From: Betaproteobacteria bacterium MOLA814
GTDB taxonomy: Bacteria > Pseudomonadota > Gammaproteobacteria > Burkholderiales > Burkholderiaceae_C
Length of the DNA: 64,000 nt
Assembly (NCBI GenBank): GCA_000496475.1
Contig: AYMW01000001.1
Location: forward strand, 184,623-248,622
Reading direction: 5' to 3'
Shown here: positions 1-10,146 of the stretch, piece after piece
How positions within the stretch are numbered: the first letter of the stretch is position 1
How the letters are laid out: each line of letters opens with the position of its first letter
Translations under genes and position numbers: made by a program
Notes under the pieces: generated by a model
Told to the model about the DNA's origin: nothing
Database searches by the model: none
What the model saw: the letters and a program-made list of their open reading frames with translations, nothing else

Positions 1-720
1 AATACTGTGCCAACCAGGCCTGGCTTGCAACCCATTCACGTTGCTTTGGCTGACCATAATCAACGTGGGATTGGCACGCACAACGAACTCTGGGTTCAAC
101 TTTGGAAACGGCCCCAACTTGGCTGGAACAATATTGCTGACCCCGAAACGGCTTAACGTTTCGCCAATGAAAGACGACTCACCGGCCGCGTAAGGACCTT
201 GGTTGACTTCAAAGTAAACCCTTAAACCACGCACGGATGGCGGCAGCGACCGGGCAGCTGCAGACACACCTGCGTCGATGTCACGCCAGATTCGCTGCGC
301 GTCTGGCACCTCCAGCAACGCCCCAATTTTGAGCATGACGCGCTGCACGTCGGCGTGGGTTTTAGGCTCAAGCGCCACCACCTTCAAGCCCAGTGCCTCC
401 AGCCGTTCGCCAGCGCGCGACGATTTGGCCATCAACACCACGTCGGGCTTGAGCGCCACGATGGCTTCAATGTTTGGGTCCAAACCACCGCCCACTTGCA
501 CCAACTTTTGAACACTATCGGGATAATTCGAATAACGGTCTACCCCCACCAAACGATCACAGCGGCCTAACTCGCACACAGTTTCGGTCAAGGAGGGCAG
601 CAAACTGACGATGCGCAACGGCGACTGGGTCAGTGTGACCATTACACCCCGGTCGTCGGTGACCTGCAGGGCATGAGACGTTGTGGCCAACAGGTACAAC
701 GTAATGAGCCACAATTTCAT
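1..720 (-). CDS. btuF: BtuF-like cobalamin ABC transporter substrate-binding protein (partial, C-terminus off window)
   Basis: The reading frame starts at 720 (MKLWLITLYLLATTSHA, a short cleavable signal peptide) and stays open to the left edge, so about 240 residues are present and the C-terminus is missing. After the leader it reads as a class III periplasmic binding protein (PF01497 type), with IVSLLPSLTETVCELG near residue 37 and a long helix region, as in BtuF. It should bind corrinoids in the periplasm for an ABC importer. Its ATG overlaps the cobU stop (ATGA), so it is the last visible gene of the riboswitch-controlled B12 operon. No BtuC or BtuD permease/ATPase gene is in the window; they may lie to the left. 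The family is clear; the cobalamin ligand is inferred from context. Confidence 0.85.
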   Translation of the reverse strand, partial: MKLWLITLYLLATTSHALQVTDDRGVMVTLTQSPLRIVSLLPSLTETVCELGRCDRLVGVDRYSNYPDSVQKLVQVGGGLDPNIEAIVALKPDVVLMAKSSRAGERLEALGLKVVALEPKTHADVQRVMLKIGALLEVPDAQRIWRDIDAGVSAAARSLPPSVRGLRVYFEVNQGPYAAGESSFIGETLSRFGVSNIVPAKLGPFPKLNPEFVVRANPTLIMVSQSNVNGLQARPGWHSI

Positions 721-1292
721 GACAACCCTTTTAATGTGAGTGGTAGGCCTGCCGCCATCAGCGTCACACGCTCACAGGTGCTGGCCACCTGTTGGTTGAG
801 CAAACCCAATGCATCTACAAAAGCCCTGACCTCGCGACCCATTGGAATCACACCCAAACCAATTTCATTACCAACCAAAATAACGGGACCTGGGGCCAAC
901 GCAATGGCTGCTGCAAGATCCGCCACGGGCAACGTGTCCGAGGTGTAGGTAGGTTGGTCTCCGACTGACTTTGCAGGCATCAACAAGTTGGTCAACCACA
1001 ATGTGAGGCAGTCCACCACCACCAATGTGGTTGGTGTACTGACCCGTCGGATCGCACCTGCCAGCGCAAGCGGCTCTTCTAGGGTGGTCATGCCAGGCAC
1101 GCGTTCAGCACGGTCTGTTTGATGGCGTTCAATCCGCTGGCGCATTTCCTCGTCCCACGGCTGTGCTGTGGCAATCAAGACCGCCGTGTGATCACCAGAC
1201 GCATCCAACCAGACGCGGGCCAATTGTTCCGCGCGGCGAGACTTGCCACTTTTTTGGCCGCCGATGATCAATTCACTGTCTGCAATGTGCAT
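717..1292 (-). CDS. cobU: bifunctional adenosylcobinamide kinase / adenosylcobinamide-phosphate guanylyltransferase
   Basis: CobU/CobP phosphorylates adenosylcobinamide and then transfers GMP to it, preparing the nucleotide loop of B12. Visible family motifs are the P-loop GGQKSGKS at the N-terminus, IATAQPWDEEM followed by RIERHQTDR (the His that becomes guanylylated in this family lies here), VDCLTLWLTNL and VGNEIGLGVIP. The start at 1292 (MHIADSEL) is chosen because the P-loop then lies at the usual distance from the N-terminus and the codon sits just after the stop of the preceding gene. An in-frame start at 1334 would add 14 unlikely residues and overlap that gene. The length of 191 residues is normal. 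The stop overlaps the next start, which suggests translational coupling. Confidence 0.93.
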   Translation of the reverse strand: MHIADSELIIGGQKSGKSRRAEQLARVWLDASGDHTAVLIATAQPWDEEMRQRIERHQTDRAERVPGMTTLEEPLALAGAIRRVSTPTTLVVVDCLTLWLTNLLMPAKSVGDQPTYTSDTLPVADLAAAIALAPGPVILVGNEIGLGVIPMGREVRAFVDALGLLNQQVASTCERVTLMAAGLPLTLKGLS

Positions 1293-1294
1293 GG

Positions 1295-2143
1295 TCACGG
1301 CGCTAAAGCCCCGGCCAGATCTGCGTCCATCCACGCGAGAACCAGCTTGTGGATCTGGCCCACGCCGTCGGTGAGCGCAGCAGGGCCAGGCTGCAAAATA
1401 TCAGGTGACTTTATTTCAAACAATTGGCCATTGCGCACGGCAGGCACATCTGCCCAGCCATCACGTGCAGCCACTGTCTCAGGTCGGAATTTCTTGCCGC
1501 ACCACGAACCAAGAATAATGTCTGGGCTGCGCTGCACAATTGTGAACCCATCGGCAATGATGCGATTTTTCCCCAAGGACTGTTGCGCCAACTCGGGAAA
1601 GCAGTCGTCACCACCTGCAATGCCAATGAGCTCTGACACCCATTGAATGGCACTGATGTGTGGCACATCCCACTCTTCAAAGAAAACTTTCGGCCTGCGT
1701 GCACCCGCCGCCAGCCGGCTCGTCACGGCGTCTTGCATGGCCTGCAACCCTTGTTGCATGGCAACAATGCGTTGCATACCTTGGTCAACCTCACCAACCA
1801 TTGAGGCCACTTGGTACATCATGGAGAAAATTTCAGCTACGCTGCGCTGGTTGTAAACCGTTACCTGAACACCCGCGCGTATCAGTACCGCGGCGATGTC
1901 GGCTTGCAAATCTGAAAATCCCAGCACGCAGTCGGGTTGCAATGCCAAAATCTTATCGATTTTGGCGCTGGTAAAGGCACTGACGCGCGGCTTTTCAGAC
2001 CGTGCCCGGCGTGGTCTGACCGTAAAACCTGATATCCCAACAATGCGTGCTTCCTGGCCCAGCAGGTACAGCCACTCGGTGGTCTCCTCGGTCATACAAA
2101 CAATGCGCTGCGGACCTAATGGAAAGCTGAAGGGATCAGACAT
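1295..2143 (-). CDS. BtuF-like cobalamin-binding protein without a signal peptide
   Basis: This 282-residue protein has the PF01497 periplasmic-binding fold signature: RIVCMTEETTEWLYLLG at the start, then SAKIDKILALQPDCVLGFSD, and a C-terminal lobe with SPDIILGSWCGKK. It begins directly with MSDPFSFPLGPQRIV, with no hydrophobic leader, so as written it should stay in the cytoplasm. It overlaps the end of cobB by 8 bases and is followed two bases later by cobU. The operon therefore encodes two binding-protein paralogues, one secreted and one not. Such leaderless proteins are commonly labelled cobalamin-binding protein in proteobacteria; whether it traffics corrinoid inside the cell is not known from sequence. 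No alternative upstream start with a leader was seen. Confidence 0.85.
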   Translation of the reverse strand: MSDPFSFPLGPQRIVCMTEETTEWLYLLGQEARIVGISGFTVRPRRARSEKPRVSAFTSAKIDKILALQPDCVLGFSDLQADIAAVLIRAGVQVTVYNQRSVAEIFSMMYQVASMVGEVDQGMQRIVAMQQGLQAMQDAVTSRLAAGARRPKVFFEEWDVPHISAIQWVSELIGIAGGDDCFPELAQQSLGKNRIIADGFTIVQRSPDIILGSWCGKKFRPETVAARDGWADVPAVRNGQLFEIKSPDILQPGPAALTDGVGQIHKLVLAWMDADLAGALAP

Positions 2144-3497
2144 GGTGAGACCTCATTGCGTTGTCGCTGAATAAATTGGCTGTGGCCGCAGGGCTAGACC
2201 AAAACCAGGCATGAAAATAACTCGCACGCAGTGACCCAGACTGGTAGACCGCTTCGCCTGCATCCTGCGAGGGCGCTTGGTTGGGACGGGTGGTGCGTTC
2301 AACCGCAGGCATCGCCGTTGTGCACGTTGAATAGTGGAACGTGTGGCCGCGCAACACGCCAGTTGGCGACGTCCATTGCTGGGGGCCAAGACCCGCCAGC
2401 CGTGTGTGCATGCTGACCGTGCCCGGGAGCAAACCCCATTGGGTCTCGCGGTGCCCATCGTGGTCAATCAGGACGTCAAACAAGGCCATCATGCCACCAC
2501 ACTCCGCCCAAACGTTCTTGTGGGCAGCAACATGCGCTTTCAAACTGTTTATAAACCGTGCGTTGCCGCCCAACGCAGCTGCATGCAACTCCGGGTAACC
2601 GCCCGGCAACCAGACGGCATCGCAGGCCGGCAGCGCAAAGTCGGCCAAGGGCGAGAAAAAAACCACCTCTGCCCCCAAGGCTTTCAGGCACTCGAGGTTG
2701 GCATCATAAATAAAACAGAACGCCGCATCTCGTGCCACTGCAATGGTGCGTCCAGCCAGGCGTTGCCCAGCAATGGCGTCGTCTACAAAGGCTTTAGACT
2801 CCGTGAAATTGACGCTCCAACGCTGCCAGTCTGATAGCGCCATCTGCCCCAACGGCGTGTCGGCCAAGGCGTCGGCTGCCGCATCCAACATGGCCAAGCC
2901 GTCCACCACCTCACTCGCCAGTTTCAACCCCAAGTGGCGCTCGGGCACACTGAGATGTGGGTTGTGCATCAAAGCACCAAGCCACTGCGCAGGTTCGCGC
3001 ACGCTGTCCATCAACATGCTGGCATGGCGCTCACCAGCCACCCGGTTTGCGAGTACACCCATCCAAGGCATGCCGGGTCGGTAGTGCTGCAGGCCAAATG
3101 CCAGGGCCCCAAATGTACCGGCCATGGCGCTGGCATCGATGACTGCAAGCACAGGCAAACCAAAACGCTGCGCTAAATCGGCCGCACTGGGGTCGCCATC
3201 AAACAAGCCCATCACACCTTCGACAATGATCAAATCAGAATTCAAAGCGGCAGCGGCCAAGCGGGCGCGGCAATCGGCCTCACCTGTCATCCATAAATCC
3301 AACTGGTGAACTGGGCGACCGCTGGCCAACGCCAACCAGCGTGGGTCCAAAAAATCTGGCCCACACTTGAAGACGGTGACCCGCTGGCCACGTCGCACCT
3401 GCAGCCGCGCCAGCGCAGCCGCCACCGTTGTCTTGCCCTGACCAGACGCAGGGGCTGCGACTAGGATGGCGGGGCAATTGGCCGCTGAGGGCAACAT
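2136..3497 (-). CDS. cobB: cobyrinate a,c-diamide synthase (CobB/CbiA)
   Basis: This enzyme amidates the a and c side chains of (hydrogeno)cobyrinic acid using glutamine and ATP. The N-terminal half is a dethiobiotin-synthetase-like ATPase with ILVAAPASGQGKTTVAAAL near residue 11 and CGPDFLDPRWL shortly after. The C-terminal half is a class I glutamine amidotransferase with AVWLPGGYPELHA and the nucleophile Cys in NVWAECGGMMALFDVL; a late GHTFHYS supplies the His region. The length of 453 residues matches the family. It is the second gene of the leftward B12 operon, 13 bases after btuB, and overlaps the next gene. In a cell lacking the early de novo pathway this step would act on salvaged precursors; that pathway is not visible here. 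Confidence 0.93.
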   Translation of the reverse strand: MLPSAANCPAILVAAPASGQGKTTVAAALARLQVRRGQRVTVFKCGPDFLDPRWLALASGRPVHQLDLWMTGEADCRARLAAAALNSDLIIVEGVMGLFDGDPSAADLAQRFGLPVLAVIDASAMAGTFGALAFGLQHYRPGMPWMGVLANRVAGERHASMLMDSVREPAQWLGALMHNPHLSVPERHLGLKLASEVVDGLAMLDAAADALADTPLGQMALSDWQRWSVNFTESKAFVDDAIAGQRLAGRTIAVARDAAFCFIYDANLECLKALGAEVVFFSPLADFALPACDAVWLPGGYPELHAAALGGNARFINSLKAHVAAHKNVWAECGGMMALFDVLIDHDGHRETQWGLLPGTVSMHTRLAGLGPQQWTSPTGVLRGHTFHYSTCTTAMPAVERTTRPNQAPSQDAGEAVYQSGSLRASYFHAWFWSSPAATANLFSDNAMRSHHV

Positions 3498-3510: not shown

Positions 3511-5298
3511 TCAAAGCGGTGACCACTTCAAGCCAACATAAAAGCCCAAGCCAGCGGTGGCATAGCCTTTGGCGGTTTCATAAGCTTGGTCGGCCACGTT
3601 ATCAACCCGTCCCAACACCGTCCAATCGCGGCTTAATGCGGTGCTGGCCGTGAGGTTTAAAAGGGTGTAGCTGGGTAAGCGATTTGTGTTGGCAGCGTCG
3701 TCAAAACGCGACCCAGTCATTTGCAACTCGGCGCCCATGTTCCAACCTGACAAGCGGGTGTCGGCGGTCAATGTAGCCATTTGCTTGGCACGGCGCGCCA
3801 ACTGTTTGCCCGTCACCATGTTTCTTGGATTTTGCATGTCCAACGAACCACCCACTGACACACCCGCTATGCGCTTAGACGCTGCAAGCGTGATGCCTTT
3901 GTACTGTGCCAATGCGGCTTGCTCGTAAGTCCTTGTTCCATAGTAAATCAAATTAGACACGTCGTTGCGGTACAAAATAGCGCTAAAACTATTTCCATTT
4001 TGCTCATACTTAACGCCGACCTCACGGTTTTGTGATGTCTCTGGTTGAAGCGTGGCCAAACCATAATAGCTGTCAAATCGCTGATACACCGTCGGCGAAC
4101 GAAAAGCGTTACCAGCTGCGGCTGTAAGCCGTAAAAAGGGGGTAAGACTCAAAGCATACGATGCACTGCCAGTGGCATAAACACCGAATTCACTGTCGTG
4201 ATCATGTCGGACATTCAGTTGCAACGCATGCACGCCTTGTTTCAACCCGTAGCCAAGGGCCAATGCATTTTGAAAACGAGTTGAAACCACGGGGGTTGTA
4301 TACACATTATTCAGCTTGTCCTCACGCCGCTCAATATCCACGCTCAGTGTGTGATTTTCTATTCGGTATTCGTTGTGCAACAAATAACTCGTTACGCTGG
4401 TATCACTAATGTAAGCGGATGGCTTGTCTTCAAGACGGTCATTGCCTTGCCCAATGCTTACGCGCGTGGAGTAAGCATCTGTCCAATTTGCTGACCAAAG
4501 CAAACCCAATGTCTGCAAGCGATGCAAGCTATGTGAGTCTGTTCCAGAAACGTTATCATATTGAGCATCTATTTCGGTTTGCAAAAATGTAGCTTCTATG
4601 CGATTGGCGGCATCTAATTTCAACCCTATGCGGCCTGAAGCGGTAGTGCTGCGGTAACCATCTAACTCAGAATCAACAAGAGGCCGAGCGCTAAACCCGC
4701 TGCTGATTTCACGGCTAATACCTATAGAGTAGTCAACCACATCAGTACCGCCAGCTAAGCCTAAGGCAAGCTTGCGGGTGCCGTGGCTGCCAGCTCCGAT
4801 TTCAACCGTAGGCAAAAAACCAGCCTGACCATCACGCGTAAAAATTTGAATAACGCCTGCCATAGCATCTGATCCGTAAATCGCAGCCGCTGGACCACGC
4901 AGAATTTCAACGCGGTCTATTTGAGACAATGGAATAGCCGCCCAACTTGCGCCACCCGTGGACTGCGAGTCGACACGCACGCCATTGATGAACACCGCGG
5001 TAAAGCGCGACTCTGCCCCGCGTATATATAGACTGGTGGTTGTTCCTGGGCCGCCGTTGCGAGCCATGGCAATACCAGGGGAGCGGGCCAGCAAATCAAC
5101 CAAACCGCCGGCCCCGCTGCGCTCGATTGCAGCTCTGTCGAGCAAGGTGACATCGGCCACCACATCAGTGATAGGCTGGGCCATTCGGGTAGCCGTTACT
5201 ATGACGGGTGGCATCTGTATTTGAGCAACCGATGGAAAAGCGGCCGCCAAGGCCAAAGGCAGTGCCAGCAAACGTGCACGTGAAGAAGTAATTTTCAT
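3511..5298 (-). CDS. btuB: TonB-dependent vitamin B12 outer-membrane receptor
   Basis: This is a TonB-dependent outer-membrane receptor, most likely for cobalamin because it directly follows a cobalamin riboswitch and heads a B12 operon. The start at 5298 gives MKITSSRARLLALPLALAAAFPSVAQ, a normal signal peptide, followed by the plug domain (PPVIVTATR, then SLYIRGAESRFTAVFINGV, then RVEILRGPAAAIYGSDAMAG) and a beta-barrel ending in a terminal aromatic segment (GFYVGLKWSPL). The length from this start is 595 residues, like BtuB. The frame is open upstream to 5481, but that extension lies partly within the riboswitch and is rejected. No strong Shine-Dalgarno is visible. A 7-bp hairpin sits about 30 bases before the start and may take part in translational control. 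Confidence 0.92.
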   Translation of the reverse strand: MKITSSRARLLALPLALAAAFPSVAQIQMPPVIVTATRMAQPITDVVADVTLLDRAAIERSGAGGLVDLLARSPGIAMARNGGPGTTTSLYIRGAESRFTAVFINGVRVDSQSTGGASWAAIPLSQIDRVEILRGPAAAIYGSDAMAGVIQIFTRDGQAGFLPTVEIGAGSHGTRKLALGLAGGTDVVDYSIGISREISSGFSARPLVDSELDGYRSTTASGRIGLKLDAANRIEATFLQTEIDAQYDNVSGTDSHSLHRLQTLGLLWSANWTDAYSTRVSIGQGNDRLEDKPSAYISDTSVTSYLLHNEYRIENHTLSVDIERREDKLNNVYTTPVVSTRFQNALALGYGLKQGVHALQLNVRHDHDSEFGVYATGSASYALSLTPFLRLTAAAGNAFRSPTVYQRFDSYYGLATLQPETSQNREVGVKYEQNGNSFSAILYRNDVSNLIYYGTRTYEQAALAQYKGITLAASKRIAGVSVGGSLDMQNPRNMVTGKQLARRAKQMATLTADTRLSGWNMGAELQMTGSRFDDAANTNRLPSYTLLNLTASTALSRDWTVLGRVDNVADQAYETAKGYATAGLGFYVGLKWSPL

Positions 5299-5389
5299 TT
5301 TTGAAACAAACGCAATGTAAGCCCTCACCGCCTTCCCCGGCAGTGCTTGGACGAAATTTGCATGCACGTCAGCAACGCGCACACAAGCT

Positions 5390-5605
5390 AATTGGCCGGT
5401 ATCCGGGCTGACGCAGTTGGTTTGTCGCCTTCCCAAGTTGGAACAACTCAGTGGCTTTGACAAACTGGGGCTTGGGCTCACACTCGGGGTGAAAGACCAG
5501 GCCTGCGCTTACCGTTGCGGGGGCAGCTCAGGTTAGGTGCGTGCTTGTGGGCACATACCCTCCTGATTCCCGTTGAACTACAGCGTGCTGAACGCAGCTG
5601 TGAGC
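5390..5605 (-). promoter_or_regulatory. cobalamin (AdoCbl) riboswitch
   Basis: The leftward leader of btuB contains the conserved elements of the cobalamin aptamer in order: GGGAATCAGG near 5570, CTGAGCTGCCCCCGCAACGG followed by TAAGC (5507-5530), GCCACTG then TTGGGAAGGCG, and the B12 box AGCCCGGATACCGGCC at 5394-5409, which fits the published consensus at every position. The distance from B12 box to the btuB start is about 95 bases, with a GC hairpin between but no U-tract, so control at translation initiation is likelier than termination. It should repress btuB-cobB-cobU and the two BtuF-like genes when adenosylcobalamin is plentiful. The exact ends are approximate. Confidence 0.95.
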
Positions 5606-5617
5606 ACCAACAGTTTG

Positions 5618-5623
5618 ATTATA
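5618..5623 (-). promoter_or_regulatory. predicted -10 box of the B12 operon
   Basis: The leftward strand has a perfect TATAAT here, about 12 bases before the first bases of the riboswitch, as expected for a start site near 5610. No good -35 element is seen at the right spacing. The same 40-base gap must also hold the signals for the rightward ZapB-like gene. Confidence 0.55.
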
Positions 5624-5642
5624 AAGCCTTTAAAATAACGAC

Positions 5643-5864
5643 ATGTCTACACACGAACAACTTGAGCAACTGACCCAACGCGTCGAGCGTCTGCTGCTGC
5701 GTCACGAAGAGGTGCAACGTGCCAACGCGTTGCTTCAAGACGAACTGGATGCTTGCAACCGAGACCGCGACATGCTGAAAATGCGACTCTCTGCTGCCAA
5801 GCAGCGCATGGACGCCGTCATCGCCGGCTTGCCGTTGCCATCACCCGAGGAGCTACAACCATGA
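5643..5864 (+). CDS. small ZapB-like coiled-coil protein (TIGR02449-type)
   Basis: This 73-residue protein is almost entirely heptad-patterned (EQLEQLTQRVERLLLRHEEV, then ANALLQDELDACNRD) and ends in a proline-rich tail. It resembles the short coiled-coil proteins found immediately upstream of zapA in beta- and gammaproteobacteria (TIGR02449 family, sometimes called ZapB-like). Its TGA overlaps the zapA ATG, so the two are almost surely coupled. By context it may assist the Z-ring together with ZapA; direct function is inferred. The next leftward transcription unit (btuB) starts only about 30 bases away on the other strand. Confidence 0.8.
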   Translation: MSTHEQLEQLTQRVERLLLRHEEVQRANALLQDELDACNRDRDMLKMRLSAAKQRMDAVIAGLPLPSPEELQP

Positions 5865-6190
5865 GCCGTATAGAAGTGCAAATAATGGGGCAAAGTTACG
5901 TGCTCGCCAGCCCAGATGGCGGTGAAGAAGCCTTGATAGTGGCCGCCAACAAAGTTGACGTGGCAATGTGCGGCATTCGGGACGCAGGCAAGATTAAGGC
6001 GCGCGAACGAATTGCCGTGCTGGCCTGCCTCAACATGGCATTCGAGTCTGGTCAGCCAACGGTTGGCAGCGACGGCGTGTCTGCTGCACACGCCACTGCA
6101 GAGCCAATTCTTGTAACACCCAACCCAGCCCTGACATCTTTAATCAAAAAACTTGATGATGCGCTGGCTCAAGATGGCCAATTGCTCTAA
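5861..6190 (+). CDS. zapA: cell division protein ZapA
   Basis: ZapA binds FtsZ and stabilises the Z-ring. The start at 5861 (MSRIEVQIMGQSYVLASP) matches the family's N-terminal beta-strand, followed by EEALIVAANKVDVAM and the conserved KARERIAVLACLNMA. The C-terminal part (LTSLIKKLDDALAQDGQLL) is the coiled-coil dimerisation arm. The length of 109 residues is typical. The longer open frame starting at 5753 is out of family register and is rejected. It is coupled to the preceding ZapB-like gene by an ATGA overlap and is followed directly by 6S RNA, the classical zapA-ssrS neighbourhood of proteobacteria. Confidence 0.93.
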   Translation: MSRIEVQIMGQSYVLASPDGGEEALIVAANKVDVAMCGIRDAGKIKARERIAVLACLNMAFESGQPTVGSDGVSAAHATAEPILVTPNPALTSLIKKLDDALAQDGQLL

Positions 6191-6211
6191 CCACACGTCT
6201 ATAATTGTCAT

Positions 6212-6394
6212 GTCTGCAGTACGCGCTGGGTTCTATATTTCCTTGTACCAATGCTCATTGAGCCCGGGCTAGAAATATTGCTTGGCTGGTGTGAGCGTCT
6301 CGCGTTAGATGAACCCGAAGCCTCGACTGATCCTGCCCACCTGTACCCTTCGGTTCAGGAATGCGGCCCGGCGGTACTTGCAGACACCCCTTTT
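6212..6394 (+). ncRNA. ssrS: 6S RNA
   Basis: The RNA starts about seven bases after a perfect TATAAT (6200-6205) and ends at the TTTT near 6391. The two ends pair (CTGCAGTACGC against the later GCGGTACTTGCAG), giving the long closing stem. The 3' half contains GCCCACCTGTACCCTTCGG and GTTCAGGAATGCGG, which resemble the conserved 6S 3' arm, and the 5' half has the TATTTCCTTGTACC segment of the opposite arm. Its place directly after zapA is the usual one in beta- and gammaproteobacteria. 6S RNA mimics an open promoter and holds sigma70 RNA polymerase in stationary phase. The folate cyclo-ligase gene that often follows is absent here. A 63-codon open frame overlapping it (6251-6442) is not credited. 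Confidence 0.85.
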
Positions 6395-6438: not shown

Positions 6439-7275
6439 ATGACCTTGCTTAGCTCTTTTGAATGGTCTTGGTTATGGACCTTTGCTGCGCTGCTGACCCT
6501 GGGTCTGGTCACAGGCTTTTTGGCTGGCTTGTTGGGTATTGGCGGCGGCATGGTGATGGTGCCCTTCCTCACCTATTTGATATCACAGCAAGGCGTCGGC
6601 AGTGCGCTAGCCGTCAAAATGGCGATCGCCACGTCCATGGCCACCATTGTGTTTACCTCGCTCTCCAGCGTGCGCGCCCACCATAAAAAAGGGGCTGTGC
6701 GCTGGGACATCGTGCGGGGACTAACACCGGGAATTGTGGTGGGCGCTCTGATCGCCAGCCTGGGGGTGTTTTCCGTGGTGAAAGGCACGACGCTCGCGTT
6801 TGTGTTTGCTGGCTTTGTCGGCTTCTCTTCACTCCAAATGTTTAGGAACAAGCAGCCACAACCCAGTCGTATGCTGCCAAGCCCTCCCGGGTTGGCGGGC
6901 GCAGGCGGCGTGATTGGATTTGCCTCTGGGCTGGTAGGCGCTGGCGGTGGTTTTATCAGCGTACCCTTCATGGCGTGGTGCAATGTAGCCATTCATCAAG
7001 CAGTGGCAACGAGTGCCGCTTTGGGCTTCCCCATCGCTGTGGCAAATGCCGTGGGTTATGTGTGGTCTGGCCAGCAAGTCAACAACTTGCCCGCTGGTGC
7101 AATTGGCTACATCTACATGCCAGCATTGGCCAGCATCGCAATCGCCAGCATGTGTACGGCCCCGTTGGGAGCACAAGCGGCACATGCGCTGCCAGTGGCC
7201 AAACTCAAGCGGGTATTCGCCACGCTGTTGCTGGGCTTGGCTGTCTACATGGCCTACAAAGGCTTGGCGGCGTAA
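6439..7275 (+). CDS. TauE/SafE family permease (probable sulfite/anion exporter)
   Basis: This 278-residue protein has about eight hydrophobic segments and the internal duplication typical of TauE/SafE (PF01925): GFLAGLLGIGGGMVMVPFL in the first half and GFASGLVGAGGGFISVPFM in the second, each with a glycine-rich motif followed by a VPF. The family exports small sulfur-containing or organic anions across the inner membrane; the substrate cannot be read from sequence. It stands alone between 6S RNA and the convergent rraA pseudogene, about 45 bases after the 6S terminator. Confidence 0.88.
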   Translation: MTLLSSFEWSWLWTFAALLTLGLVTGFLAGLLGIGGGMVMVPFLTYLISQQGVGSALAVKMAIATSMATIVFTSLSSVRAHHKKGAVRWDIVRGLTPGIVVGALIASLGVFSVVKGTTLAFVFAGFVGFSSLQMFRNKQPQPSRMLPSPPGLAGAGGVIGFASGLVGAGGGFISVPFMAWCNVAIHQAVATSAALGFPIAVANAVGYVWSGQQVNNLPAGAIGYIYMPALASIAIASMCTAPLGAQAAHALPVAKLKRVFATLLLGLAVYMAYKGLAA

Positions 7276-7304
7276 GCGCTCACAGCGCCAGCAGCCGGGT
7301 TCAT

Positions 7305-7702
7305 TCATTGATGCAGATGGATTGGCTGACGGCTTACCACCGCACCCTCGGTATCAACGTACGACCAGTCACCAGGATAACTCCAATGCCTTTCAACAAA
7401 CAGGCACATCGCGCACGCCAAGATCTTGTCGGTTTGTAAGCATGGGGGTTGACGCCAGCGCAGACATGACACTGCGCCAGTTTAGCCACATCACGCACGC
7501 AACCGTTGACCAACACCCACCCTAAACCTAGTGATTCAACGAAAGCCTTCACCAAGCTTTTGTCCTCGACACACTGAACGGTGGCAACAGGGCCAGCCCA
7601 AGACGCCCCCTAGCCATACCAGCGCCGCACAACGGGGCGGGCGTTCACAGTGCCAGATGTGGCACTTTTACATGCGTGGCACACATCACAAGTTGCAAAC
7701 AT
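7305..7702 (-). pseudogene. rraA: rraA pseudogene (RraA / HMG aldolase family, several inactivating lesions)
   Basis: Read leftward from 7702, the sequence begins MFATCDVCHACKSATSG, the characteristic RraA N-terminus (FATCDLCDAH in intact members). It then has an in-frame TAG after RRWYG, resumes with WAGPVATVQCVEDKSLVKAF (the RraA AGPVATVKCFEDNSLVK segment), jumps from ESLG to WVLVNGCVRDVAKLAQCHV, skipping the conserved VDGGGSLRRALLGG region, and continues in shifted frames with GVRDVPV and PGDWSYVDTEGAVVS to a stop at 7305. So there is one stop codon, an internal deletion and at least two frameshifts. Intact RraA is about 160 residues and either inhibits RNase E or acts as an oxaloacetate decarboxylase/HMG aldolase; this copy cannot make it. 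The homology was recognised by eye from motifs. Confidence 0.8.
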
Positions 7703-8069
7703 CAACAACTCAGTTGTCACAGAAACTCTCGGCACGGGTTGGCTGTGGGCACAGGTCACAGCTCATAACAGGGCCATGTGTCGGGATAGACTGAAAATGC
7801 CAAACAAGTGATGGGTCATTGCGACGCACAGGGGGCTCAATGGCTTGTTAGTCGTCTTGGTATTGTGAAATCGCAACCATTCAACCGACCCAAAGCGTCA
7901 CACAAGCAATACTTAATAACTAATAAATGCAATTTTCTTGCTAAAAACGACGGTCGCCAAGCTTATGCCAACTTATCTCCGGTAGCATATGCATGGTCGG
8001 GCCTTCAATATTTGTATTTTCAAAAAAGAGGGTTGGCGTTTAAGAACATCTGAAAAGGACATTTCCACA
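7703..8069. other. non-coding gap between the rraA pseudogene and the SWIB gene
   Basis: About 370 bases without a believable gene on either strand; the short open frames here lack codon bias and ribosome-binding sites. It must hold the promoter of the SWIB gene; an AT-rich part at 7910-7945 and another at 8010-8030 are the likeliest places. No tRNA or terminator was recognised. Confidence 0.5.
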
Positions 8070-8421: not shown

Positions 8422-10146
8422 CTAGCCCGACGCATCAAGTGCGAATTGACGGATAGCCGACAAGGTGGCTTTGGTTGTAATGACCTCTGGATCCAACACC
8501 ACCTCAATCAAATAGCCGCTGGCGCTCGCCAACGCCACTTGCAAGGCAGCTTCAAACTCATGGGTGTGTGTAATACGCTGCGCGCCGTAGCCGTAGGCTT
8601 TGGCCAACGCACAAAAGTCAGGGTTTGCCAATGTACTGCCACTAAGACGCGCAGGATAGTGACGCTCTTGGTGCATGCGAATAGTGCCGTACATACTGTT
8701 ATTCAGCAGCAATACGATGGTTTTAGCACCATGTTGAACCGCTGTTGCCAACTCTTGGCCATTCATCAGAAAGTCACCGTCACCCGCAATGGTGAACACT
8801 GTACGCCCAGAGGAAATGGCCGCGCCAACCCCTGCTGGTATGCCGTAGCCCATGGCGCCATTGGTAGGCGCTAACTGGGTTTTAAGCCCGCGAGCCAAGC
8901 CAACATAGGGATAAAAGCGGTGTAACCAACTGGCAAAGTTACCTGCGCCATTGGTCAACACCGCATCCGCTGGCAGGTGCTTGACCAATGTATGAATGAT
9001 GGCTGGCATGTCTATGGTGCCGGGCATGGCCATGCCACCGTTGGCGACGTCTGTGTGTACGTGGTAATCGGCGTTGGCTTGATGCGTCCAATTGGATTGC
9101 ACCCACGCCACCTGGGGTGACTCGCCTTGGCAACTGGCGGCCAAGGCAGCTGCCGCGCTGGGCATGTCCGCGCAGCCGCTTACATGCGCCGTAAACACAC
9201 GGTTTAACTCATGAGCGCTGGCGTGTATGTGCACCAAATATTGTTTGCTCACTGGCGAGGTCACAAGTGTGTAGCCATCTGTGGTGGACTCACCCAAACG
9301 CGGGCCCAGCACAAACAAGTAATCGGCTTCTTGTATGCGCTTGCTCAATTGTGGGTTGATGGCCAAGCCCATGTCGCCGGCGTACAGCGCATGGCTGTTG
9401 TCAAAACAGTCTTGAAACCGAAACGCATTGCAGACTGGCAACTGCCAATGCTCAACCCATGTTTGCACATCGCGTGCCGCCTGAGACGTCCAACCGCCGC
9501 CGCCCAGCACCACCAGCGGGCGCTTAGCTGCTTGCAAGGCGTGTTCAATATCTAAGACCACGCGAGGTGACAAGCCCATAGGCACTGGCTGCGTGCACCC
9601 CAGTTGAGCCGGCACACCGTACAGATGCGCAGGTATCACCTGGGTCAGCATGTCCTCAGGCAATACCAACACCACTGGCCCAGGGCGACCGCTCATGGCT
9701 GTGGCGTATGCCCGCTGTACATACTCAGGTATTCGCAAGGGGTCGTCTATACGCTGCACAAGCTTGGCCATTGGGCCAAAAAACTGGGTAAAGTCCACCT
9801 CTTGAAACGCTTCACGGTCCCGGCAGTCAGCAGCCACATCGCCCACCAACAGCAGCAACGGTGTGCTGTCTTGAAACGCGGTGTGCAAGCCAATGCTCGC
9901 ATTGGTCGCACCTGGCCCCCGTGTGACCATGCAGACACCCGGGCGCCCCGTCAACTTGCCATGCGCTTCAGCCATGAATGCCGCCCCACCCTCTTGGCGA
10001 CACGTTACAAACTGAATGGCTTCGGCATGGAGATGCAAACCATCAAGAACTGCTAAATAACTCTCACCGGGCACACCAAAAGCATGGGTTGCTCCCTGCT
10101 CTATCAAGCACTCCACCAGCCAATGTCCTGCCAACTTAACCTGCAT
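8422..10146 (-). CDS. thiamine pyrophosphate-dependent enzyme, acetolactate synthase-like
   Basis: A 574-residue member of the ThDP-dependent decarboxylase/carboligase superfamily (POX/AHAS type). The N-terminal PYR domain has HAFGVPGESYLAVLDGL and the catalytic Glu region FVTCRQEGGAAFMAEAHG. A central TPP_enzyme_M domain follows, and the C-terminal PP domain carries the ThDP/Mg motif GDGDFLMNGQE ending in LLLNN. The start at 10146 (MQVKLAGHWLVE) follows AAGGG. It is not a clear IlvB: no small regulatory subunit or ilvC is nearby. It lies 21 bases after an MFS transporter gene and is probably co-transcribed with it, so the two may handle one metabolite. Substrate unknown; biosynthetic acetolactate synthase, a benzoylformate-decarboxylase-like or an oxalyl-CoA-like role cannot be separated by eye. 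Confidence 0.85.
   Translation of the reverse strand: MQVKLAGHWLVECLIEQGATHAFGVPGESYLAVLDGLHLHAEAIQFVTCRQEGGAAFMAEAHGKLTGRPGVCMVTRGPGATNASIGLHTAFQDSTPLLLLVGDVAADCRDREAFQEVDFTQFFGPMAKLVQRIDDPLRIPEYVQRAYATAMSGRPGPVVLVLPEDMLTQVIPAHLYGVPAQLGCTQPVPMGLSPRVVLDIEHALQAAKRPLVVLGGGGWTSQAARDVQTWVEHWQLPVCNAFRFQDCFDNSHALYAGDMGLAINPQLSKRIQEADYLFVLGPRLGESTTDGYTLVTSPVSKQYLVHIHASAHELNRVFTAHVSGCADMPSAAAALAASCQGESPQVAWVQSNWTHQANADYHVHTDVANGGMAMPGTIDMPAIIHTLVKHLPADAVLTNGAGNFASWLHRFYPYVGLARGLKTQLAPTNGAMGYGIPAGVGAAISSGRTVFTIAGDGDFLMNGQELATAVQHGAKTIVLLLNNSMYGTIRMHQERHYPARLSGSTLANPDFCALAKAYGYGAQRITHTHEFEAALQVALASASGYLIEVVLDPEVITTKATLSAIRQFALDASG

Follow-up and report, generated by a model that had tools for sequence, protein, structure and literature searches.

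A leaderless BtuF-like protein clade found beside B12 genes, with a putative cytoplasmic role in corrinoid binding

Why does a B12 operon encode two proteins of the PF01497 (Peripla_BP_2) family, only one of which carries a leader? The question arises at the left end of the window (the whole 64,000-nucleotide stretch of DNA analysed here), where a minus-strand operon runs riboswitch–btuB–cobB–leaderless gene–cobU–btuF–btuC–btuD and on to cobS (Table 1). A sequence-only reading of this DNA had pointed out the two paralogues, and both indeed match the profile; the leaderless product scores 143 bits (cut-off 27.5), with residues 14-246 covering profile positions 1-233 of 235, and the profile is likewise matched by all 12 members of a clade set (A1). 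That reading had also given a leader to the paralogue at 1-720 and a direct start to the other, with an 8-base overlap with cobB, and on both points it was correct. The full btuF product in the assembly (290 aa; L003 14471-15343, followed by btuC and btuD) has a hydrophobic N-terminus. The second gene starts without a leader at an ATG (2143) that lies inside the end of cobB (2136), and two bases separate its stop from the cobU ATG at 1292, which is preferred here to the GTG at 1334 of the ORF list. We looked for an alternative start that would supply a leader; it is excluded, since an in-frame TGA lies just three codons 5′ of the ATG and no leader-bearing longer product is possible.

Table 1. 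Features of the B12 operon in the window
Feature	Coordinates	Strand	Evidence
Cobalamin riboswitch 5′ of btuB	5377..5626	-	RF00174 66.1 bits, gathering 31.5
btuB, TonB-dependent B12 receptor	3511..5298	-	best NCBIfam match TIGR01779 382.1 bits, under 599.7 cut-off
cobB, cobyrinic acid a,c-diamide synthase	2136..3497	-	NF002204 403.6 bits, cut-off 254
In-frame TGA upstream of the leaderless gene's ATG	2153..2155	-	translation reads ...ATTQ*GLT-MSDP
GAGG, Shine-Dalgarno-like, 7 nt 5′ of the leaderless gene's ATG	2151..2154	-	sequence
Leaderless PF01497 protein, 282 aa	1295..2143	-	ATG start, ORF and PF01497 match, model pLDDT 92.5
cobU	717..1292	-	PF02283 156.5 bits, cut-off 27; start taken as ATG 1292
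btuF, truncated at the window edge; N-terminus hydrophobic	1..720	-	PF01497 84.6 bits

Beyond btuD, ORFs of the assembly can be read as cobO, cobD, cobC, cobQ, cobT, cobS and a cobC-type phosphatase. The host genome (2.86 Mb, completeness 100) encodes two PF01497 proteins, both in this operon, and one FecCD permease, beside btuF. CbiC/CobH was not found in it and tetrapyrrole methylase-fold proteins number two in all, suggesting that the host salvages and does not make the corrin ring. Retention of cobB without ring synthesis was also seen elsewhere: in a set of 100 same-family genomes, CbiC is absent from 33 of the 49 that bear cobB (a count that includes G068 and G072, with split sub-cutoff matches). 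According to PMC6461909, 46% of precursor salvagers have cbiA/cobB, which means that cobB without ring synthesis is known in general.

The absence of a leader is unlikely to be a chance feature of this locus. Under a rule that takes a start 16-60 codons 5′ of the core, K/R and an uncharged 10-residue window with a Kyte-Doolittle mean above 1.8, a leader-like N-terminus was found from any start in one of 141 clade loci and in 80 of 95 operon BtuFs; this is a crude rule that overlooks some BtuF leaders, and the loci include certain genomes twice. The predicted location of the protein is thus the cytoplasm.

If so, what does it do there? The sequence-only reading had proposed that a cytoplasmic corrinoid-binding protein hands substrate to CobB and CobU, and had suggested looking for the pairing of leaderless PF01497 genes with cobB/cobU. 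The leaderless clade and its place in a B12 operon support the first half of the proposal; a conserved hand-off is not supported. The leaderless gene is present in 45 of the 100 family genomes (E below 1e-40), and its co-occurrence with either gene does not exceed chance, cobB being found in 23/45 carriers and 26/55 non-carriers (Fisher p 0.84) and cobU in 28/45 and 33/55 (p 0.84). Both genes are absent from 12 of the 45 carriers, eight of which are at least 90% complete; one genome without them (G087) has the order btuB–leaderless gene–btuF–btuC–btuD and a cobalamin riboswitch. As the adjacent gene, cobB occurs in 11/45 carriers. These counts (p 0.84 each, 12 carriers with neither enzyme) indicate that delivery to CobB and CobU is not the conserved role of the family. 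A one-genome-per-species scan gave at least 589 relatives, of which 80, mostly titled Comamonadaceae or other Burkholderiales, were analysed as named loci. In these 80, btuB precedes the leaderless gene in 29 loci and cobB does so in 28, cobU follows it in 43 and btuF follows it in 26, and the order cobB–gene–cobU occurs in 27. That order, together with the tight coupling in the window (the 8-base overlap and 2-base gap), favours a hand-off dedicated to the two enzymes; however, btuB and btuF are common neighbours too, and we consider such a dedicated role very improbable. CobB and CobU may still receive substrate from the protein where they are present, including in the window organism.

The neighbourhoods point instead to B12 genes in general. 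In 44 family carriers (43 and the window; G040 was left out for its contig edge), a B12 gene lies within about 300 bases of the leaderless gene in 34 and none adjoins it in 10. The 34 loci comprise 17 with cobU 3′, 10 with btuF 3′, five with cobQ–gene–cobT and two others (L077, L105). The arrangements include btuB–(cobB)–gene–cobU or –btuF, cobQ–gene–cobT and btuFCD–gene. Since B12 genes recur beside the leaderless gene in separate arrangements, the clade is tied to B12, and the family appears to go with B12 genes at large and not only with neighbouring CobB/CobU. In one locus (L094, G099), the operon with the leaderless gene and btuF includes a second BtuF-like gene, 3′ of cobO.

Two loci from other classes of the phylum show the association too. 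One (L061, G372) has the order riboswitch–btuB–PF01497 protein with leader–btuC–btuD–leaderless gene. In the other (L065, G131), read in the gene's orientation, cobO is followed by a riboswitch (7097-7284), a hydrophobic protein (7312-7992) and the leaderless gene from 7992; the gene for the hydrophobic protein (8768-9448, minus strand) overlaps the leaderless gene by one base, and the two genes come directly after the riboswitch. For the hydrophobic partner, Pfam gave nothing up to E 1 and NCBIfam two uninformative sub-cutoff matches, and no relative of it was found in the other loci L054-L195; it is possibly a B12 or corrinoid membrane protein.

Most copies outside the family have no B12 neighbour. 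Eighteen non-family loci were scanned over up to 8 kb on either side of the gene: three show B12 reference genes, and in the other 15 nothing matched the B12 proteins of the window operon, a search that divergent proteins could escape. In one locus (L068), cobT and cobS are more than 5 kb from the leaderless gene. No cobalamin riboswitch was found within about 1.5 kb in 17 of the 18 non-family loci; near solitary copies, one was present in 1/18 non-family loci (L046) and 1/10 family loci (L105). No neighbour of the solitary copies is common to more than four loci, in the 22 of 29 loci where the gene was recovered by ORF calling; the neighbour shared by L054, L056, L057 and L058, apparently close relatives, is an ORF that we take to be AroB-like. 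In the phylum sample, riboswitches are present in 21/21 carriers and in 258/299 genomes overall, a difference that is not significant (p 0.09).

The protein could alternatively be a second substrate-binding protein of BtuCD, exported without a classical leader. The host genome does encode one FecCD permease for two PF01497 proteins, and most members of the clade keep an acidic residue at the first docking site. However, the second docking glutamate is mostly lost. The columns of E. coli BtuF E72 and E202 are both Glu in 91/91 distinct BtuFs, whereas of 132 distinct leaderless proteins nine have Glu in the first column and eight in the second; the first is Asp in 105/132, and the window protein has D63 and F200. 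Outside the family, the second site is Glu or Asp in 12/17 and the first is Glu in 1/17. PMC3741162 describes Glu-Arg salt bridges as a requirement for docking by binding proteins of this class and numbers the first glutamate Glu74; we use 72, its number in the MG1655 BtuF sequence. Nothing about the docking glutamates was found in PMC5698293, PMC5662663, PMC6453779 or PMC5997447. The gene is also kept in complete genomes without an above-cutoff FecCD permease. Three carriers listed as 100% complete (G253, G311, G379) gave no FecCD match, a fourth so listed (G130) gave only a sub-cutoff match over 67 profile positions, and no FecCD permease was found in a fifth, 84% complete (G341). In all five, the leaderless protein is the sole PF01497 protein, and cobalamin riboswitches are present. 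B12 users without BtuFCD, Xanthomonas axonopodis for example, have been noted before (PMC2667541). Given the loss of most docking glutamates and the retention of the gene without a BtuC-type permease, the protein is unlikely to serve an ABC importer at all, and, with 140/141 loci lacking a leader under our rule, we regard export to BtuCD as extremely improbable. PF01497 matches would then not all be transporter parts, and a leaderless gene counted as BtuF would point to B12 import in genomes that lack a BtuC-type permease.

To see what the protein might bind we turn to its predicted structure. The AlphaFold2 model (pTM 0.90; pLDDT in Table 1) has V. cholerae BtuF as its top Foldseek match (E 1.6e-16, among 50 matches listed). 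E. coli BtuF (1n2z, 5m29) has the same PF01497 fold and also a B12 gene context, 1n2z aligning by VIA with rmsd 2.5 over 241 residues; sequence identity to it is 16%. Contacts of BtuF with cobinamide are given as Y50, W66, W85, F162, F168 and W196 in PMC5269720, and most of the same residues in PMC5662663. To read the corresponding columns, we aligned E. coli BtuF with 91 distinct BtuFs and 132 distinct leaderless proteins. In the leaderless clade, the Y50 column is Y/F in 132/132, W66 is F in 131/132, W85 is F in 132/132, F162 is Glu in 132/132, F168 is variable (His in 72/132), and W196 is F in 130/132, the alignment being gapped around W196 and the SWCG motif, so that these columns are less sure. 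Four of the six contact positions are thus aromatic. Phe in place of W66 is compatible with a corrinoid, since the W66F mutant of BtuF retains 30 nM cobinamide binding (PMC5269720). Unlike in BtuF, where a C-lobe loop arginine (R246) is present in 91/91 proteins, this column is Gln in 132/132 leaderless proteins. The exchange of F162 for Glu, the loss of F168 and the change of R246 to Gln suggest that the ligand may differ from cobalamin.

A further difference from BtuF is a set of residues particular to the clade. E156, E157, W158, S213, C215, G216 and Q251 are invariant in 132/132 leaderless proteins, among them the W158 and S213/C215/G216 that BtuF does not have; E20 is Glu in 131/132 and W214 is Trp in 126/132. 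E156 is also Glu in 91/91 BtuFs. The cleft is predicted to be mostly aromatic with a clade-specific FEEW/SWCG set. Five proteins excluded by a score filter from the column counts and the tree (L112-L115 and L071) were inspected separately. All of them keep FEEW and SWCG, and in L112-L115 Ala or Ser replaces Q251. L112-L115 form a 44-47% identical subgroup, represented in four genera, whose genes are flanked by cobQ and cobT; L071 (G341) is a 36%-identical relative.

The fold by itself would also suit a cytoplasmic protein for heme, another tetrapyrrole or a metal complex, present in B12 operons for some other reason. Class III heme-binding proteins are periplasmic partners of heme importers. 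Those matched here (2r79, 2r7a, 5giz BhuT, 3nu1) have the same fold with Z 22-25, and two of them score above BtuF by VIA (2r79 25.4 and 2r7a 24.8 versus 23.7 for 1n2z, among 50 matches listed); the best single-sequence PDB match of the leaderless protein is a BhuT chain (5b58_T, E 1.5e-8). The many non-family copies with no adjoining B12 gene would fit such a ligand too. However, the clade differs from these proteins in being leaderless and beside B12 genes, which recur in several arrangements, and a riboswitch leads into the G131 unit; the aromatic cleft follows the W66/W85 positions of BtuF; and the IsdE model (TIGR03659) gives 25.2 bits against a cut-off of 298.65. We therefore judge heme or a related ligand improbable, and a corrinoid would be the ligand suggested by the genomic context and the cleft.

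Because the FEEW/SWCG site is so invariant, the main rival to a binding role is an enzyme that acts on corrinoids, by removal of an axial ligand or by cutting or changing a side chain, through E156, E157, W158 and C215. Strict identity of six of these residues (E156, E157, W158, S213, C215, G216) in 132/132 proteins seems high for a carrier, and the two motifs persist in the divergent cobQ–cobT subgroup and in the 36%-identical relative. CbiZ is a known cobinamide amidohydrolase. It is absent from 100/100 family genomes, though the operon has ORFs read as cobD, cobC and cobQ. Against this, a strictly conserved binding site would look alike, the structural matches (best 50 each, Foldseek and VIA) are all binding proteins by title, and CbiZ is equally missing from the 55 family genomes without the leaderless gene. 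An enzymatic role of this kind is, in our estimate, unlikely. The idea that the protein replaces CbiZ was considered and dropped, since its absence from all 100 family genomes offers no contrast.

A recent duplication of the operon's own btuF as the origin of the leaderless gene was rejected, for the two fall into separate clades over long branches. In a tree of 32 leaderless rows and 26 operon BtuF rows with E. coli BtuF, the two groups are divided by branches with support 99/98 and 96/92 on long stems; in this tree the bootstrap had yet to converge, the row of E. coli BtuF is very long and the root is arbitrary. The operon's BtuF shares PF01497 and the operon with the leaderless protein, but is 27% identical to it over residues 10-255, begins with a hydrophobic leader, keeps the two docking glutamates and belongs to the other clade. 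The spread of the leaderless gene is wide. It was found in 21 of 299 phylum genomes (E up to 1e-25), and 17 of the 21 belong to other families, five from the same class and 12 from other classes, with identity of 36-62%; no relative was found in viral contigs. Taken with the tree, this distribution indicates a clade that is separate from BtuF and old. One genome (G250) has two leaderless copies (L059, L060), 58 and 56% identical to the window's.

PF01497 itself is already known; the leaderless clade is widespread and apparently unstudied. Three NCBIfam matches of the window protein fall well under their cut-offs (64.3/325, 31.7/234 and 25.2/298.65 bits), the second being to the BtuF model NF002894, whose cut-off the operon's BtuF, as far as it lies in the window, does not reach either (70.2); the general subfamily NF038402 TroA_like is matched by 9 of 12 diverse members (best E 6e-9). 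No close relative was found in the PDB, where the best match of the clade profile is 4m7o (E 2e-25), and among the open-access papers searched, no title or abstract beginning deals with a BtuF-like or PF01497 corrinoid protein that is leaderless.

From the above, the best explanation, to which we give an even chance, is that the leaderless protein uses its class III (BtuF-type) fold to bind corrinoids in the cytoplasm, acting as a carrier or acceptor after import and not docking on BtuCD. The protein would be made together with the B12 uptake system and stay in the cytoplasm, where imported corrinoid (cobinamide and/or cobalamin) would be held in the cleft between its two lobes and passed to whichever host enzyme is present; candidates include CobO (an adenosyltransferase), CobU and B12-dependent enzymes. 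A broader version, which we put forward tentatively, has an intracellular corrinoid chaperone or corrinoid-processing enzyme: a periplasmic fold recaptured into the cytoplasm, its invariant Cys/Glu/Trp site facing the corrin ring, that would deliver B12 or its precursors to host enzymes even in the absence of BtuCD. To our knowledge, no dedicated soluble corrinoid carrier has been assigned in bacteria between the inner-membrane importer and the enzymes. The carrier role that we infer would fall to a conserved, leaderless BtuF relative encoded beside B12 genes; with its site defined and mutable, the handling and transfer of scarce, reactive corrinoids along this route become testable.

Just beyond the operon, the window holds a 6S RNA (RF00013, 56.2 bits) at 6208-6390, beside an ORF (5862-6190) that is presumably ZapA-like.
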